Source of the DNA: Erwinia tasmaniensis Et1/99
GTDB taxonomy: Bacteria; Pseudomonadota; Gammaproteobacteria; Enterobacterales; Enterobacteriaceae
Reading direction: 5' to 3'
NCBI RefSeq assembly: GCF_000026185.1
Contig: NC_010694.1
Coordinates: forward strand, 2,480,001 to 2,544,000
Length of the DNA stretch: 64,000 nucleotides
A model generated the notes under the pieces. The model was given only the letters and a program-made list of their open reading frames with translations, was not told the origin of the DNA and made no database searches. Below are positions 18,738 through 57,026 of the stretch, piece after piece (positions within the stretch are counted from its first letter, which is position 1; each line of letters begins with the position of its first letter). A program made the position numbers and the translations under genes.

Positions 18738-19259
18738 ATGAAGCGTATTGCCATTGATATGGATGAAGTCATTGCCGACTTCCATCCTAAAATTGTTGAC
18801 ACCTGGAACAGCCATTTTCCCCAGCAGCTTAGCGCGGAAGAACTGAACCTGTTCGATCTGCATCAGGATTCTCCAGAACAGCTGGCCGAGCTGTTTGCCC
18901 TGGTGGACCATCCAACCTTCTTTGACGATCTGGCGGTGATTGCCGACAGCCAGCAGGTTATCGCCCGGCTGAGTGAGCATTACGAGATTTTTATCACCAC
19001 CGCGGCCATGCTGATGCCGAGCTCGTTCAATGCCAAATTCCGCTGGCTAAACACCCACTTCCCGGCTATTCCGCACGGCAATATCGTTTTCTGCGGCGAT
19101 AAAAGCATCATTAATGCTGACTATATGATTGATGATAATGCGATTAATTTTGCCGGGTTCTGCGGCGAGGGCATTCTCTATTCCGCCCCGCATAACCGCA
19201 AGGTGACCGGCTATCGCCGCGCTGAAAACTGGCAGGATATTGCCACCCTGCTGCTGTAG
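18738..19259 (+). CDS. 5'(3')-deoxyribonucleotidase family protein (HAD)
   Basis: HAD-superfamily nucleotidase of 173 residues. Motif I is DMDEVIADF (nucleophile Asp and general acid Asp), motif II is in FITTAAM, and the motif IV acidic cluster is DYMIDDNAINF. It probably dephosphorylates (deoxy)nucleoside monophosphates in nucleotide-pool control. Its 3' part, from about residue 95 to the stop, is duplicated 5.8 kb downstream at 24.8-25.1 kb, so this gene is the integration site of the reverse-transcriptase island and was kept intact by the imported copy of its end. Confidence 0.85.
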   Translation: MKRIAIDMDEVIADFHPKIVDTWNSHFPQQLSAEELNLFDLHQDSPEQLAELFALVDHPTFFDDLAVIADSQQVIARLSEHYEIFITTAAMLMPSSFNAKFRWLNTHFPAIPHGNIVFCGDKSIINADYMIDDNAINFAGFCGEGILYSAPHNRKVTGYRRAENWQDIATLLL

Positions 19260-19324
19260 TCAGCGGATGGAAAGGCGCGAAATCTCGCGCCTGATACGCT
19301 ATGGCTGGCGGCCCTGATGTTGCA
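19036..19324. repeat. Left 289-bp direct repeat of the island (attL side)
   Basis: Identical to 24813-25101 (constant offset 5777) except for two substitutions at 19296 and 19302; weaker identity extends upstream to about 19020. It covers the last 74 codons of the nucleotidase gene, its downstream region, and a copy of the final codons of hutG. Both mismatches lie in the last 30 bp, as expected if this outer part came with the element. Confidence 0.93.
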
Positions 19325-19525
19325 GTACTATGAATTTATTTTAATTAATTGATAAATATCAGCTTTGTTTATATTGCATTCAATTGGAATGCTAATGGCA
19401 TACTTTTAAGGCGTGTCTTTTTCCTACAAATGTAGTTTGTGGGGTTTTACTGCTGTGGTCTTTAGGTTAGATTTTTAAAGTGTTAGTATGTGGCTATATG
19501 AATAGTATTAGGACAATGACAATAC

Positions 19526-20452
19526 ATGGTTGATATAATGGATACACCATTTTGTTTTTTGAAATTCGTTAAACAAGATAGAATTGATATCTTAAAAGAT
19601 GGATATATTAGATTTACACCGCCTAAAGATTTGAATGACCCATTCGAAGTTAACCCTGTCATAATACCACATGATCCCTATAATCTTCATTTATTAGAAT
19701 CTGGATATGATTTTAATAGCCATAAATTTACAAAGAGTGATCACGAATATTCACGGAAAAGATTTAATAAGATTGAAGATTATAAATCAATGTATTCAAA
19801 ATTTTCCAATAAGTATGGGATTCTTTCCCTCTCTAGCTCTAAAGATATGTGCTCAATTCCATCAGTTGCTATTTTTAGTGAAGAAGACCCACGTCGTAAT
19901 TTATTAATGTGGTCCCACTATACAGATGAACATAGAGGTTTTATTATTGAATTCCACCGCAATTTCATTGATAATTTTGACATTTCAAAGGTATCCTACT
20001 CCGAAGAGCGACCAATAATAACCCAAGAAGAAATACAATCTGAAGCACTATTTCCTTTTTTTGTTAAGGGTGAAAAATGGTCTTATGAAAAAGAGTGGCG
20101 AATCATTAAACCTTTGGAACAAGCGGATGAAAAAGTATGTTTAAGTAATGGAAATATCGTACATTTATTTAAAATAAAAAAATCCCATATTCGTTCTATA
20201 ACTACAGGTTGCAATATGGATTCCAATAAAATAGAAGAATTAAAAAGCATTGTATTTGATGATCCAGAATTAAGAGACTGTTTATTTTATGTTTCCAAAA
20301 TCGATAATGAAGGATTTTCCTTGGATTTCAGATCATATTCGGCTCATGGTTGGACTAATGATGATGTGTTAGGATTCCCTATGATATCTCAACACCCTAC
20401 ATTAATAAATCCTGACCATGTAAAAACAAATGTAACTAAAAGTGAAGAGTAG
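19526..20452 (+). CDS. DUF2971 family protein (island cargo)
   Basis: 308-residue soluble protein with the DUF2971 hallmark near its start: an aromatic-rich strand, GYIRFTPP, then the NDPFEVNP motif (about residues 26-42). CSIPSVAIFSEEDPRRNLLMWSHYTDEHRGF and EKEWRIIKP are the other family blocks. The biochemical function of DUF2971 is not established; such genes are frequent on genomic islands and beside defence genes. It points away from the RT operon, which lies on the opposite strand, so it may be separate cargo rather than a subunit. A second ATG at 19538 is possible. Confidence 0.8.
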   Translation: MVDIMDTPFCFLKFVKQDRIDILKDGYIRFTPPKDLNDPFEVNPVIIPHDPYNLHLLESGYDFNSHKFTKSDHEYSRKRFNKIEDYKSMYSKFSNKYGILSLSSSKDMCSIPSVAIFSEEDPRRNLLMWSHYTDEHRGFIIEFHRNFIDNFDISKVSYSEERPIITQEEIQSEALFPFFVKGEKWSYEKEWRIIKPLEQADEKVCLSNGNIVHLFKIKKSHIRSITTGCNMDSNKIEELKSIVFDDPELRDCLFYVSKIDNEGFSLDFRSYSAHGWTNDDVLGFPMISQHPTLINPDHVKTNVTKSEE

Positions 20453-20487
20453 CAGAAATATAATTTAAATCACAGGCTTCTTGGTGC

Positions 20488-20612
20488 GGCTACACTGAAA
20501 GGACGGTTTGGGTATCACCGCGCCACTAAAGCCAGTTACCTCGGTTCAGAAGAGTTACCGCTCAACGGGAAGCAGGTCACTGCATCTTCATCTCAATTCA
20601 AATTCTTTTAAT
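20488..20612 (+). other. GC-richer patch, possible gene remnant
   Basis: Within the AT-rich island this stretch has chromosomal-like composition and an open frame without a start (GRFGYHRATKASYLGSEELP ... GKQVTA) ending in TAA. I do not recognise the family. It may be the tail of a gene lost when the island was rearranged. Confidence 0.3.
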
Positions 20613-20648
20613 TGACTATCTTTACATTGAACATAGATTTATAGAAAG

Positions 20649-20674
20649 CAAAAAGCCAGCTCGAAAGCTGGCTT
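20649..20674 (-). terminator. Terminator of the RT operon / ncRNA
   Basis: Perfect 9-bp stem AAGCCAGCT / AGCTGGCTT with a TTCG tetraloop, read on the minus strand and followed by TTTTGC. It lies about 190 nt beyond the second RT stop, leaving a long untranslated segment that I assign to the ncRNA. Confidence 0.9.
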
Positions 20675-20850
20675 ATGCACTATAAGAGTCAGGCTCAACA
20701 TCAGGTGTGTAGCACAATAAAGTGCCTCAACTCGAAATTTTGAACAGTGTTCGCACTGAGCAAAACAACAAGAGAATACCACTGCGAACAGTGATTGCCG
20801 CTAAAAAACATGGCAGGAGCAATATTGCCCTTCTCTCAAAGCCTATGTAA
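20650..20850 (-). ncRNA. Candidate DRT3 noncoding RNA with ACACAC template tract
   Basis: Structured, non-coding segment after the second RT gene on the same strand. Read on the minus strand it has, in order: a GCAATATTGC palindrome (20828-20819); a hairpin CACTG-TTCG-CAGTG (20793-20780); a hairpin CAGTG-CGAA-CACTG (20758-20745) whose loop region is complementary to the first; an ACACAC tract (20710-20705); and the terminator. Type 3 DRT systems include an ncRNA; as I recall, an ACACAC segment in it is reported to template GT-repeat DNA, and that is what is found here. Ends are approximate; no separate promoter was identified, so processing from the operon mRNA is possible. Confidence 0.7.
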
Positions 20851-20859
20851 TGTATCACT

Positions 20860-22869
20860 TTAATATCCGGTCCTCAACTCTTTCCTTTCTAAAAGGTTAA
20901 GATTATTAAGTTGGTCCCACTTTACAAACCAGTACTTGGTCAGTAAGTAGGTTAGATCATCATTTATTTCTTGATTATTTCTTGCAATGCCAAATTTTGC
21001 AATAAACTTTCTATAAAGCAACTCCCTAACCGTATTCGAAATATATTTACAACTCATAACATCTAAGAAGAGATGAGCAATCTCTGAGCTTTTATCCAAA
21101 TCAAAACCATCTTCAAACTTCTCTTTGATAATATTTTCAACTTCTATCCTTTTCTCAGAAAAGACAGCATGATCTTTATAGTAATATAGGAGACTAATTA
21201 TAAAGAAGTAGTTATAATTTTTTATTTTCTCTAATGCTTCATTTAATTGAAATTGATCCATTAAAAAGTTTGGGCCAAAGTTGCTCGTTGCGAGTATTAC
21301 ATTCATTTTCTCAATAGACGTAAATCCATCTCTTAGCTCTACATCTGAATTATAAAATCGCATGTTTTGTATTTGATGCATTACTGTATCTTTGAATAAA
21401 TCGAGATGAACTTGCGAATTTATTTTGTAGAACTCTTCTACCGATATTATTGCCTTGGCTATCCTATTAGAAGATGTAACATTAGGTTTAATGCAGTGGA
21501 AAAAAAACATCATTTTAATGATGATTATTATAGCACTATGGAACTTGTTTATATCGTCATGATCATTAGTATGATCATACATTTCAACAATCCTCGCTAT
21601 TCTCTTTGATAAAGCTGCCAAGAGATATGGTGCAACATTTTTATACCCATCACCAGTTTCACAACAGCGTGACTTTATCAAATCAAGTGTGCTTTTTGTT
21701 AATCTATCGGGCCTATGGATATAATTTATCTTGCTTGCGCTGTCACTATTTTTATCTATTTTGGCAAAGATATTTTCATCAAAATGAGTTAGTATTTTCT
21801 TTGCTTCTATAACCATTTCTGATTTATTTGTTAAGAATGGCCTTTCTATTTTACTTAGTTTTTTATCTCCTAAGTAAAGATTATATTTACCAAGCTCATC
21901 ACTGATGATTCCATGAACCCTTTCTGCTACACTTTCATTTATTGCAAAAATAAAGTAATCATCGACGTATCTTAAAATTTCAAAATGTGTTTTTAATTTA
22001 TACTGATAAACTTCTTCTAACTTTCTAACGATACAATCGTCTATGTTTTGAAATATCAACTCTGCGAAAACTCGGCTAAATTCAGCCCCAATTGGAATAC
22101 CATTGGTTTCGTTATTATTACTCCGTTGCATAATTGAATCTAACTCGTCACCAAACTGTTTTCCCTTGTTTAAATTAGACTTTATAAACCCCTTGCTTTT
22201 TATTGCCCATGATATTGTATGTGTATAAATGCTGTCGAAACAGTTAGCTATATCTAAGGACCACATAACATTAAATTTTTTTTCTAATGTGATATATTCC
22301 CCATTCTCAAATAACTTATAAATTCTATCATATCCTTTATAGGAAAAAAATGATGATGCATGTTTACTCCAGATCTCACTATCTAAAGTATCAATTTTTG
22401 TTTTTTTATAGGCTAATTTACCAACTATTTTCTTCTTCGTGTAAAATGAATTTGCAATTTTAACAGGTGCTCTTATCGATAATTTACTTTGAGAGCACAG
22501 AGATGTGATTGCACTTGCAAAACGATGATAGAACCCCACATAGTTATATTGTGAACGCGGATGGATTAACGATAACGTCCTTAATTTTCTTTCATCTTTA
22601 AATATTTTAAATTTCAATGGATACGTTTGTTCTGACTGTTTCGTTACTCTTACAGTATCATTAGGTAAATTTAAATCCTCCTTGGGAGCTACTATTTTCC
22701 TGAAAAATGTCACTATTGGATTATACTGACCATTACTTTGATTACTTAAATGAGAATTAATATAAAAACCATCATTAGAAAAAATGATAGGAGCATCTGA
22801 AGGAGATGTGTCCGTTAATAACGCCCTTCTATAATCTTTCTTGTCAAGCTTTACGGTTTGTATACTCAT
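20860..22869 (-). CDS. drt3b: Defence reverse transcriptase, Drt3b-like
   Basis: Large RT of 669 residues. Conserved polymerase motifs: motif A LDIANCFDSI (Asp206), motif B GIPIGAEFSRVFAE (257-270), and the catalytic box RYVDDYFIFA (YVDD at 301-304). The roughly 350-residue C-terminal half has no maturase, endonuclease or protease motif I recognise and looks alpha-helical, as in UG/Abi RTs. The start is the ATG at 22867-22869, overlapping the upstream RT stop by 4 nt (ATGA), 7 nt after AAGGA; a TTG two codons earlier is less likely. Very AT-rich. The partner RT and downstream ncRNA argue for DRT type 3, where two RTs and an RNA give phage defence. Confidence 0.85.
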   Translation of the reverse strand: MSIQTVKLDKKDYRRALLTDTSPSDAPIIFSNDGFYINSHLSNQSNGQYNPIVTFFRKIVAPKEDLNLPNDTVRVTKQSEQTYPLKFKIFKDERKLRTLSLIHPRSQYNYVGFYHRFASAITSLCSQSKLSIRAPVKIANSFYTKKKIVGKLAYKKTKIDTLDSEIWSKHASSFFSYKGYDRIYKLFENGEYITLEKKFNVMWSLDIANCFDSIYTHTISWAIKSKGFIKSNLNKGKQFGDELDSIMQRSNNNETNGIPIGAEFSRVFAELIFQNIDDCIVRKLEEVYQYKLKTHFEILRYVDDYFIFAINESVAERVHGIISDELGKYNLYLGDKKLSKIERPFLTNKSEMVIEAKKILTHFDENIFAKIDKNSDSASKINYIHRPDRLTKSTLDLIKSRCCETGDGYKNVAPYLLAALSKRIARIVEMYDHTNDHDDINKFHSAIIIIIKMMFFFHCIKPNVTSSNRIAKAIISVEEFYKINSQVHLDLFKDTVMHQIQNMRFYNSDVELRDGFTSIEKMNVILATSNFGPNFLMDQFQLNEALEKIKNYNYFFIISLLYYYKDHAVFSEKRIEVENIIKEKFEDGFDLDKSSEIAHLFLDVMSCKYISNTVRELLYRKFIAKFGIARNNQEINDDLTYLLTKYWFVKWDQLNNLNLLERKELRTGY

Positions 22870-24137
22870 TTCCAAATCCTTGTTATTTCTTTCAATCTAT
22901 TTAGGCTGTATTTTTTGTGTATTTTTTTAGTAAATCCTCTTGCGAAGCTTATTTTAAGCAAAGTTTTTACCTGGCTTTTACTCAATGAAGCATCTAATTT
23001 TTTTGATAACCGGCAACCAGAACCAAGTGTTAATGCTCTGATATAAAAATCAATGACCTTTAGTGACTCACTATCATCGTTGACTAATGGATAGTTGTAA
23101 AATATTCCCGTTGGCATCTTCCGATTTTTATCTTTATTTATTAAAAGCCTATTCGTAGATAAAAATATTATCCTGTCGAGTAATAATGTGAAATCTCTAT
23201 TCAACTCATAGTTGTAAAATGCTTTGCATAGTTTTGTTTTTATTTTATTTAATTTTTTATCACTTACCCCAATAACTACTTTTCTATATACTGAATTAGC
23301 TTTTCCTTCTGATGAAGCACATTTCTTGGCTGGTGGTATATGAGTGTCTATAACTTTTATCTTGTACCCCAAATAATCAATAATTGCTGCTAATTTTCCT
23401 TTTACATCATTTGGCGAATGAGTTCTCTTTTTTATTTTAATAATTTTGGTTTTTAAATCATTGACACATAAATTTGCTGGTAGTTTATTCTTTATTGAGG
23501 TTAAAATAGACTTCCCATCTACTTTATGATCCGTCATGATTAGGATGTCATCAACAAATCGTTTATAGAGAAACACTCCGTCAATTCTTTTTATCCATTC
23601 ATCAAATTCTTGTAAGTATAAATCAGCAAGTAAAGAGCTTAGTTCTATGCCTCTTGGCACACCTTTACCCCCAAGACTCCTATGTTCTTCCAGTACTAAG
23701 TCAATAAGTTTTTTTGAATGATATGAAAGTGAGCCTATTTTAGCAGCTTTGCTTAATAGAGAATCTATGTCGATAGATTCATAAAATGATTTTAAATCAA
23801 TACATATTACTTTGCTCTCTACCCCTTCCTGTAGGTAAGAAACTAAATTTCTAACAATTTCATTACGCTGTAACCTATCTGTTTCAATCTTATTTCTAAT
23901 ATTACTCTGTAATTTCCTTAAAATTAATTTATATGAAAGTCTATCAACATAATATACATCTTTTCCCTTAGATACAGTGTTGCTTATCACTGGTGCTGTT
24001 AATCCATGAGCTAACTGATAGGACTCTTCAATCACTTTTTCAAAGATTTGTTCATCAGCGAGATTTTTACACTTATAAAAATCACTTTGCCTTATCATTT
24101 TTGATAGGGAAAACTTATCAAAACTTTGCTCCCTCAT
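22866..24137 (-). CDS. drt3a: Defence reverse transcriptase, Drt3a-like
   Basis: RT of 423 residues, first gene of the two-RT operon. Motif A VICIDLKSFYESID (Asp114), motif B GVPRGIELSSLLADLYL (159-175), and catalytic box KRFVDDILI (FVDD, 194-197) are intact. The C-terminal third is Lys-rich and without recognised domains. Strong AGGAGG ribosome-binding site 5 nt before the ATG. It lacks group II intron maturase/HNH domains and retron hallmarks; tandem pairing with a second, larger RT and a downstream ncRNA fits Drt3a of DRT type 3. Assignment to the exact UG group needs a phylogeny. Confidence 0.85.
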   Translation of the reverse strand: MREQSFDKFSLSKMIRQSDFYKCKNLADEQIFEKVIEESYQLAHGLTAPVISNTVSKGKDVYYVDRLSYKLILRKLQSNIRNKIETDRLQRNEIVRNLVSYLQEGVESKVICIDLKSFYESIDIDSLLSKAAKIGSLSYHSKKLIDLVLEEHRSLGGKGVPRGIELSSLLADLYLQEFDEWIKRIDGVFLYKRFVDDILIMTDHKVDGKSILTSIKNKLPANLCVNDLKTKIIKIKKRTHSPNDVKGKLAAIIDYLGYKIKVIDTHIPPAKKCASSEGKANSVYRKVVIGVSDKKLNKIKTKLCKAFYNYELNRDFTLLLDRIIFLSTNRLLINKDKNRKMPTGIFYNYPLVNDDSESLKVIDFYIRALTLGSGCRLSKKLDASLSKSQVKTLLKISFARGFTKKIHKKYSLNRLKEITRIWK

Positions 24138-24220
24138 ACGATCCTCCTTTAAAGGGGTGGGTATTTTGCTGAGGCTAATAACGAATTATACAAGTTAGGG
24201 CTATTCTTAAGTAGGTACAA

Positions 24221-24604
24221 TTAGATTTTCTGCAGTGCGCCATACACTCGTTTTTCATCCAGCTCTGAGTATCTCTCTGTAGGGTCGGTTGTGTTACTGT
24301 GGTTCAGAAACCTCTTCACCACAACATAGGACGTTAACTCTTATGCAATACGGCCAAAAGTACGCCTAAGATTATGCGTGCCTAACTTCACTATACCTGC
24401 CTTCATGAAAAGATACTCTCGTAGGCTTTTGCTATCTAGATAGTGTCCTGTTTTACTTCGTGGCGAACGTTCAGGGGATCCCCATCTTCTACAGTGTGCT
24501 TTCAATTCGTTGTTGAACACTATATCCCTTCGGTCTCCTAACAAGCACTTCACCCCATCGCAGATAGGCAACACATGATTTGATCTCTTCCCTTTGCTCA
24601 GCAC
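24221..24604 (-). pseudogene. Broken tyrosine recombinase (integrase) remnant
   Basis: The minus strand encodes the catalytic half of a phage-type integrase: LSKGKRSNHVLPICDGVK, the box HNLRRTF, then VVVKRFLNHSN and the Tyr region TERYSELDEKRVYGAL before a stop at 24221-24223. A TAA at 24341-24343 interrupts the frame between the Arg box and the rest, and the N-terminal half is missing (stops just upstream of 24604). The gene cannot make an active enzyme. Position beside the right repeat marks it as the element's former integrase. Confidence 0.82.
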
Positions 24605-24812
24605 TTCACCACGCGCACTTGTTTACAGCTTCTGTAAATCTGCTAGCGATAAAAGAATCCCGCTCATGCCTTTCACTCCCTTCGTTGAATTGAGCATAGA
24701 CACACGCAGACATGACATTAAAAAATACTTAACGACATTAAACTCAGTAAAAAGCATCGTTCAATCAGATTAGGTTGAGGGAGTTTTTTCTACTGAAGTT
24801 CGTTCAATGCTT

Positions 24813-25101
24813 AATTCCGCTGGCTAAACACCCACTTCCCGGCTATTCCGCACGGCAATATCGTTTTCTGCGGCGATAAAAGCATCATTAATGCTGACTA
24901 TATGATTGATGATAATGCGATTAATTTTGCCGGGTTCTGCGGCGAGGGCATTCTCTATTCCGCCCCGCATAACCGCAAGGTGACCGGCTATCGCCGCGCT
25001 GAAAACTGGCAGGATATTGCCACCCTGCTGCTGTAGTCAGCGGATGGAAAGGCGCGAAATCTCGCGCCTGATGCGCTACGGCTGGCGGCCCTGATGTTGC
25101 A
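24813..25101. repeat. Right 289-bp direct repeat of the island (attR side)
   Basis: Second copy of the nucleotidase gene 3' end (identical to 19036-19324 except at 25073 and 25079). It is a promoterless gene fragment: the reading frame upstream has a TAA at 24812-24814 where the intact gene has AAA. Its right end is continuous with the hutG stop region, so this copy carries the resident chromosomal sequence on the outside. Confidence 0.93.
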
Positions 25102-56884: not shown

Positions 56885-57026
56885 CGGCGAAGACTTAACG
56901 GCTGGTTATTCAGGTGTGACAAGCACACGCCGCTTCCCGTCAGTGTGACGGGGGCTGGCCTCGGCATAATAAGCTGGGAGACAAGATTTTTCCTACTGAA
57001 TATTCGTTTCACCACGTTAATGGAAA

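Follow-up and report, generated by a model that had tools for sequence, protein, structure and literature searches.

The closest described relatives of the locus reported here are the DRT type 3 (DRT3) anti-phage system of Escherichia coli, EcoDRT3 (PMC13174585), and the system of Protein Data Bank (PDB) entries 9z6y and 9z6z. According to the main text of PMC13174585, the reverse transcriptase (RT) Drt3a copies ACACAC of a non-coding RNA (ncRNA) into poly(dTdG), and the RT Drt3b synthesizes poly(dCdA) with no nucleic acid template, starting from Y666 as the primer, E22 being the A gate and R241 the C gate. The two strands form double-stranded DNA (dsDNA), which is limited by RecBCD. Drt3a and Drt3b are equated with the RT groups UG3 and UG8, respectively, in a figure legend of that paper and in PMC13314766, and a 6:6:6 complex was described in an independent study as reviewed in PMC13314766. 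The DNA analyzed here, called the window, is a stretch of 64,000 nt from Erwinia tasmaniensis Et1/99 (contig NC_010694.1, positions 2,480,001 to 2,544,000); it holds a drt3a-drt3b operon followed by an ncRNA region. Judged from sequence and by analogy with the studied systems, this locus is very likely a complete and probably working DRT3 anti-phage system that belongs to a natural lineage with Asp in place of Glu at the A gate of Drt3b (the D-gate lineage).

Operon, family assignment, and ncRNA

Both genes are on the minus strand. The first, drt3a (22866..24137), encodes the UG3, RNA-templated RT of 423 aa, with its FVDD motif and the Asp of motif A intact, and has AGGAGG 5 nt ahead of its ATG. 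It overlaps by 4 nt (ATGA, 22866-22869) with drt3b (20860..22869), which encodes the UG8, protein-primed and protein-templated RT with motif YVDD, C-terminal Tyr669, and gates Asp25 and Arg266, the roles of these residues being assigned by alignment. The length of Drt3b is 669 aa counted from ATG, or 671 aa from an alternative TTG start in the list of open reading frames (ORFs). GC content is 0.30-0.31 over the operon (21001-24000), compared with 0.54-0.58 at 14-19 kb and 0.57-0.65 at 25-39 kb.

Both proteins scored well over the cutoffs of their NCBIfam equivalogs (Drt3a against NF041747, 354 bits, cutoff 200; Drt3b against NF041748, 625 bits, cutoff 350), and the top PADLOC models were likewise Drt3a (PDLC02175, 398 bits) and Drt3b. 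The UG3 and UG8 assignments follow from these family models together with the papers cited above. Among PDB sequences searched with phmmer, the best matches were 9z6y_A for Drt3a (E 1.9e-57) and 9z6y_H for Drt3b (E 1.8e-111), both over nearly the full length; 9z6y is a solved Drt3a/Drt3b complex and thus provides the nearest chains of known structure for both RTs. Drt3b also matched 26cz_A (E 9.4e-71), a SUMO fusion of Drt3b that is probably the EcoDRT3b of PMC13174585, since its residues match the numbering in that paper. Identity as an intron, retron, or other UG RT was rejected by the profile scores, with 62 bits for the group II intron RT model (cutoff 300) and 37 bits for the retron RT model (cutoff 235).

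The ncRNA region is taken to extend from the drt3b stop to the terminator (20653..20859, minus strand), on the evidence of its fold, a terminator-like site, and its DNA likeness to two E. coli loci, isolate 538 (L004; 88% over 217 nt) and strain 504838 (L005; 77% over 197 nt); L numbers denote the loci compared. It folds at -70.8 kcal/mol with a z score of -3.5, better than all 200 dinucleotide shuffles. The putative intrinsic terminator, a hairpin with a T tract (20653..20674, minus strand, read from 20674 to 20653), is a pattern match, and the scan gave 3 sites compared with 1.5 in shuffles, so the site by itself is weak evidence. No Rfam family was found in the ncRNA region at gathering scores; at E up to 1, the only match in the surrounding island was a sub-threshold PreQ1 hit inside drt3b, which was taken as chance. 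The preliminary description of the window had named two RT genes of 423 and 669 residues with intact FVDD and YVDD motifs, an ATGA overlap, a strong ribosome-binding site on the first gene, AT-rich composition within an island, and a structured non-coding region with a terminator after the second gene, all of which were found again here; its assignment of the locus to DRT type 3 is borne out by the profile scores and by the RNA template.

That template, ACACAC for poly(dTdG), is at 20705..20710 (minus strand), where the window carries GCUACACACCUGAUG 3' of drt3b. Templates were counted in 52 of 58 loci, the window included, after dropping L012 (contig ends), L026, L070, L081, and L084 (drt3b broken and not ending at the gene end), and L093 (a weak relative with no Drt3a in the stretch). 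In 50 of the 52, ACACAC lay no more than 270 nt past drt3b, the exceptions being L018 (CACACA) and L020 (CACACG); over 450 nt of dinucleotide-shuffled sequence it occurred in a mean of 3.5 and a maximum of 8 of 52 loci (100 shuffled sets). L020 is the sole locus of the 52 with an interrupted template run.

The ncRNA is predicted from pairing and covariation to be closed by a stem, P1, with its 5' arm at 20827..20838 and its 3' arm at 20683..20694 (minus strand). Across the 12 pairs in 8 D-gate-lineage loci, 85.4% of 96 cells were paired compared with 53.4 in shuffles, and 31 cells had changed on both sides compared with 12.1. The covariation score was 0.89, compared with 0.24 in shuffles and 0.06-0.27 in slid versions, a comparison that favors the unslid version because duplex prediction had guided the placement of the arms. 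Changes on both sides were seen in 10 of the 12 pairs, a value matched by 39 of 500 shuffles. When arms were swapped among loci, own arms gave a mean of -21.9 kcal/mol compared with -15.1 kcal/mol, but only 3 of 8 rows had their own arm as the best partner, and the case for P1 therefore relies on the covariation count.

The D-gate lineage of Drt3b

By alignment, the EcoDRT3b residues E22, R71, D182, F187, R241, and Y666 map to D25, R97, D206, F211, R266, and Y669 of the window protein. The C-gate Arg (Arg266) and the R71 equivalent (Arg97) are kept, and the equivalent of the priming tyrosine is the last residue; Tyr is within the last four residues in 50 of 50 complete Drt3b rows. These 50 rows, from the 58 loci, were used for a Drt3b tree, leaving out L012, L026, L035, L070, L081, L084, L091, and L093. 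The tree is a quick one with the gate columns excluded; a set of 30 rows was also treated with a quick tree, and both contain some long branches.

The A-gate residue is Glu in 36 of the complete rows and Asp in 14. Eleven of the 14, including the window, form one starred group (Shimodaira-Hasegawa-like approximate likelihood ratio test, SH-aLRT, 100), and the others, L030 with L082 and L083 by itself, are placed elsewhere, which indicates that the A-gate residue changed more than once. A single origin of the D gate, with one change, had a support of 77 in the 30-row tree; it was rejected by the 50-row tree, which gives three changes, at least two of them forced by starred branches.

The window protein carries Asp25, Ser24, Ala262, and Asn209. 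At position 262, which lies four residues ahead of the C-gate Arg and corresponds by count to P237 of EcoDRT3b, 11/11 lineage rows have Ala or Ser, 36/36 E-gate rows have Pro, and the three D-gate rows outside the lineage have Pro, Pro, and Asn (Pro in L030 and L082). At position 24, 33/36 E-gate rows have Tyr or Phe and 10/11 lineage rows have Ser, Gly, Thr, or Asn; at position 209, 27/36 E-gate rows have Lys, 11/11 lineage rows have Asn or His, and the three D-gate rows outside the lineage have Lys, Lys, and Arg. The lineage is thus separated completely from the E-gate rows at positions 25 and 262 only, and nearly so at 24 and 209; positions 531, 22, 243, 267, and more also lean toward the split, as expected of any old lineage. 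Among the excluded rows with broken genes, L070 and L081 (Asp gate) have Ser262, which fits the pattern; L084 also carries Ser262, and L026 (Glu gate) has Gln262, counter to a strict rule for positions 25 and 262. In Drt3a, no position was found to mark the lineage as sharply, the best being 194 (FVDD/YVDD) and 119.

The lineage is also marked in the RNA. Directly 3' of the template, CUGAUG (20699..20704, minus strand) follows ACACAC in 11/11 lineage rows and in 0/39 other rows, and it is also found in L070, L081, and L084. An altered template in D-gate systems was considered and rejected, as ACACAC is unchanged in 11/11 lineage rows.

Shared descent alone can explain why these gate and RNA changes occur together. 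A tentative and rather doubtful alternative is that the lineage represents a second co-adapted protein-templating active site, in which Asp, the smaller residue 24, the loss of Pro262, and Asn/His209 would jointly impose the alternation of C and A in a pocket of different construction, passed down together with a distinct version of the RNA (ACACAC-CUGAUG); the partial activity of the E. coli enzyme with E22D would then reflect the lack of these companions. The D gate is already known in nature, and what is added here is a lineage with joint changes at 262 and beside the RNA template. P237, Y21, K185, and CUGAUG are not mentioned in the main text of PMC13174585. We regard the co-changes as a modest addition to a known system and make no claim of first notice. 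According to the discussion of PMC13174585, DRT3b is one of a small number of known enzymes in which amino acids alone dictate a DNA sequence. A natural lineage with joint gate-region changes and a constant RNA template offers a direct means of finding out which residues embody this rule and how much freedom there is to rebuild it.

Proposed function and alternative explanations

In the proposed mechanism, Drt3a would bind the downstream ncRNA and copy ACACAC repeatedly into poly(dTdG), and Drt3b would start DNA on its own Tyr669 and, without a nucleic acid template, add dC and dA alternately, with Arg266 selecting C and Asp25, replacing the Glu of the studied enzyme, selecting A. The two strands would pair into repetitive dsDNA, which host RecBCD would destroy until a phage disables RecBCD; the dsDNA would then accumulate, the infected cell would stop, and phage spread would be prevented. 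The products, the priming, and the RecBCD link are those published for other DRT3 systems, and we infer the same action at this locus. The product is probably unchanged from that of the studied DRT3, because the RNA template is unchanged. A search for recB in the host genome found it at 1307 bits (cutoff 696). Compared with isolate 538, dN/dS (the ratio of nonsynonymous to synonymous substitution rates) is 0.08 for drt3a and 0.04 for drt3b, which are rough values because dS, at 1.8-2.2, is near saturation; dS compared with strain 504838 was beyond computation.

Several points weigh against a working DRT3 system of the described kind. The A-gate Glu is absent from Drt3b, and in the main text of PMC13174585 the E22D change is reported to leave the E. 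coli enzyme with only partial poly(dCdA) synthesis. Accounts of how infection is sensed differ: that paper points to Gam and RecBCD, and its discussion relates other work that points to ST61, a protein of phage T1. A promoter scan of the locus gave 16 sites compared with 19 in shuffles, i.e., no excess. E22D is also reported there in a substantial fraction of natural homologs, and since the variant is both common and partly active, the A-gate Glu is not a condition of membership in DRT3.

The alternative that survives best, though we consider it unlikely, is a DRT3 system whose Drt3b active site has been rebuilt (Asp25, Ser24, Ala262, and Asn209) and makes DNA that differs in efficiency or fidelity, with Drt3a still making poly(dTdG). 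The partial activity of E22D alone in the E. coli enzyme and the split at positions 25 and 262, with the near split at 24 and 209, would fit such a change. However, with ACACAC constant throughout the lineage, poly(dCdA) would still be the expected complement; the lineage differs at other positions too, L030 and L082 keep Pro262 and Lys209 with a D gate, and the broken E-gate gene of L026 lacks Pro262. It is much less probable that the locus is a decayed, non-functional defense remnant in a dying island. The integrase and the plasmid control region in the island (below) are indeed fragments, and drt3b is broken in the relatives L026, L035, L070, L081, and L084, but both RT genes of the window are intact with their catalytic residues and show few amino-acid changes compared with isolate 538, and the RNA retains its P1 stem, its template, and the terminator-like site. 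The chance adjacency of two unrelated RT genes (intron, retron, or other UG) can be set aside with near certainty, as the weak intron and retron matches are far under their cutoffs and a Drt3a-like ORF directly before Drt3b, with ACACAC after it, recurs in distant genomes.

Island, distribution, and comparison with known systems

A direct repeat of 300 nt from the 3' end of NT5C brackets the island (about 19325-24796), the copies being 98% identical. The left copy (19020..19319) covers the 3' end of the intact NT5C and beyond, and the right copy (24797..25096), a 5'-truncated NT5C copy, is continuous with the native flank. The preliminary description had the system inserted in a nucleotidase gene, and this did not hold, as NT5C is unbroken at 18738-19259 and the island lies behind it, followed by the truncated second copy of its 3' end. 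NT5C was uninterrupted in 4/4 same-genus loci compared (L049, L050, L051, and L057), from 16 other genomes with a match. The repeat is longer than an ordinary att core; an att-type repeat of the recombinase and the recombination of a plasmid carrying the NT5C end were both considered as its possible origin.

Upstream of drt3a is a decayed remnant of a tyrosine recombinase (24344..24604, minus strand), which over 81 aa is 65% identical to the integrase of strain 504838 and 63% identical to that of isolate 538; it had no match among plasmids and no Pfam match of its own. Because it resembles the integrase directly upstream of drt3a in strain 504838, the integrase beside drt3a-drt3b probably predates this site, and the mover has probably since been lost from the module here. 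At 19526..20452 (plus strand) there is a candidate defense gene, DUF2971/PDC-S31 (PDLC04990, E 2.2e-36; PF11185, 30.8 bits, cutoff 22). A stretch of about 80 nt (20485..20566) resembles part of small enterobacterial plasmids and is a putative remnant of a ColE1-type replication control region: two queries holding it matched 524 and 543 plasmid records, 19/20 and 8/8 of the matches listed fall there, and in both plasmids examined for it the matching stretch overlaps Rfam RNAI. This RNAI/RNAII-like stretch hints that a plasmid was involved in the formation of the island. Elsewhere in the window, Rfam gave a Peptidase-S11 RNA at 56893-56973 (51.6 bits).

At E up to 1e-40, NF041748 was found in 7/295 genomes of the host's family, 12/394 of the order, 2/369 of the class, and 2/398 of the phylum; each count includes the window's own genome, and the samples overlap in part. 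Of the sampled family and order genomes, 2-3% thus hold a DRT3, and the locus is one further complete example. In E. coli, related DNA was present in 29/5426 genomes, in 25 of them covering 80% or more of the query. A protein search gave coverage of at least 80% in 8/200 matching plasmid records and 0/9 matching phage records. An alignment-based scan of viral contigs gave 32 relatives, 25 with more than 100 bits to the window Drt3b; single-protein scans gave no relative in viral contigs and one in GTDB genomes. An E-gate DRT3 in E. coli (L039) lies between genes for a phage polarity suppression protein and an integrase, beside ssrA, which recalls P4-like satellites.

An AbiP2-type RT (638 bits; L014, 1045-2559) is encoded elsewhere in the same genome (C2 near 3742701); it is also a defense RT of the DRT models, but a single RT, separate from the DRT3 locus. 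The DRT3 loci of E. coli isolate 538 and strain 504838 belong to the same D-gate lineage and have the same RNA motif as the window, their operon DNA matching the window query at 78% over 100% and 69% over 95%, respectively. They differ in having a full-length tyrosine recombinase before drt3a (directly in strain 504838, one gene away in isolate 538), next to mutS, whereas the window has a fragment only, behind NT5C. With EcoDRT3, as described in the main text of PMC13174585 and probably represented by 26cz, and with 9z6y/9z6z, the window shares the gene order, the downstream ncRNA with ACACAC, the catalytic motifs, the C-terminal Tyr primer, the C-gate arginine, and the R71 equivalent. CUGAUG after the template is counted as a difference from known DRT3, with the EcoDRT3 RNA itself outside the comparison. 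Compared with EcoDRT3, the window has Asp25 for the A-gate Glu, Ser24 for the Tyr before it, Ala262 for the Pro four before the C-gate Arg, and Asn209 for K185.

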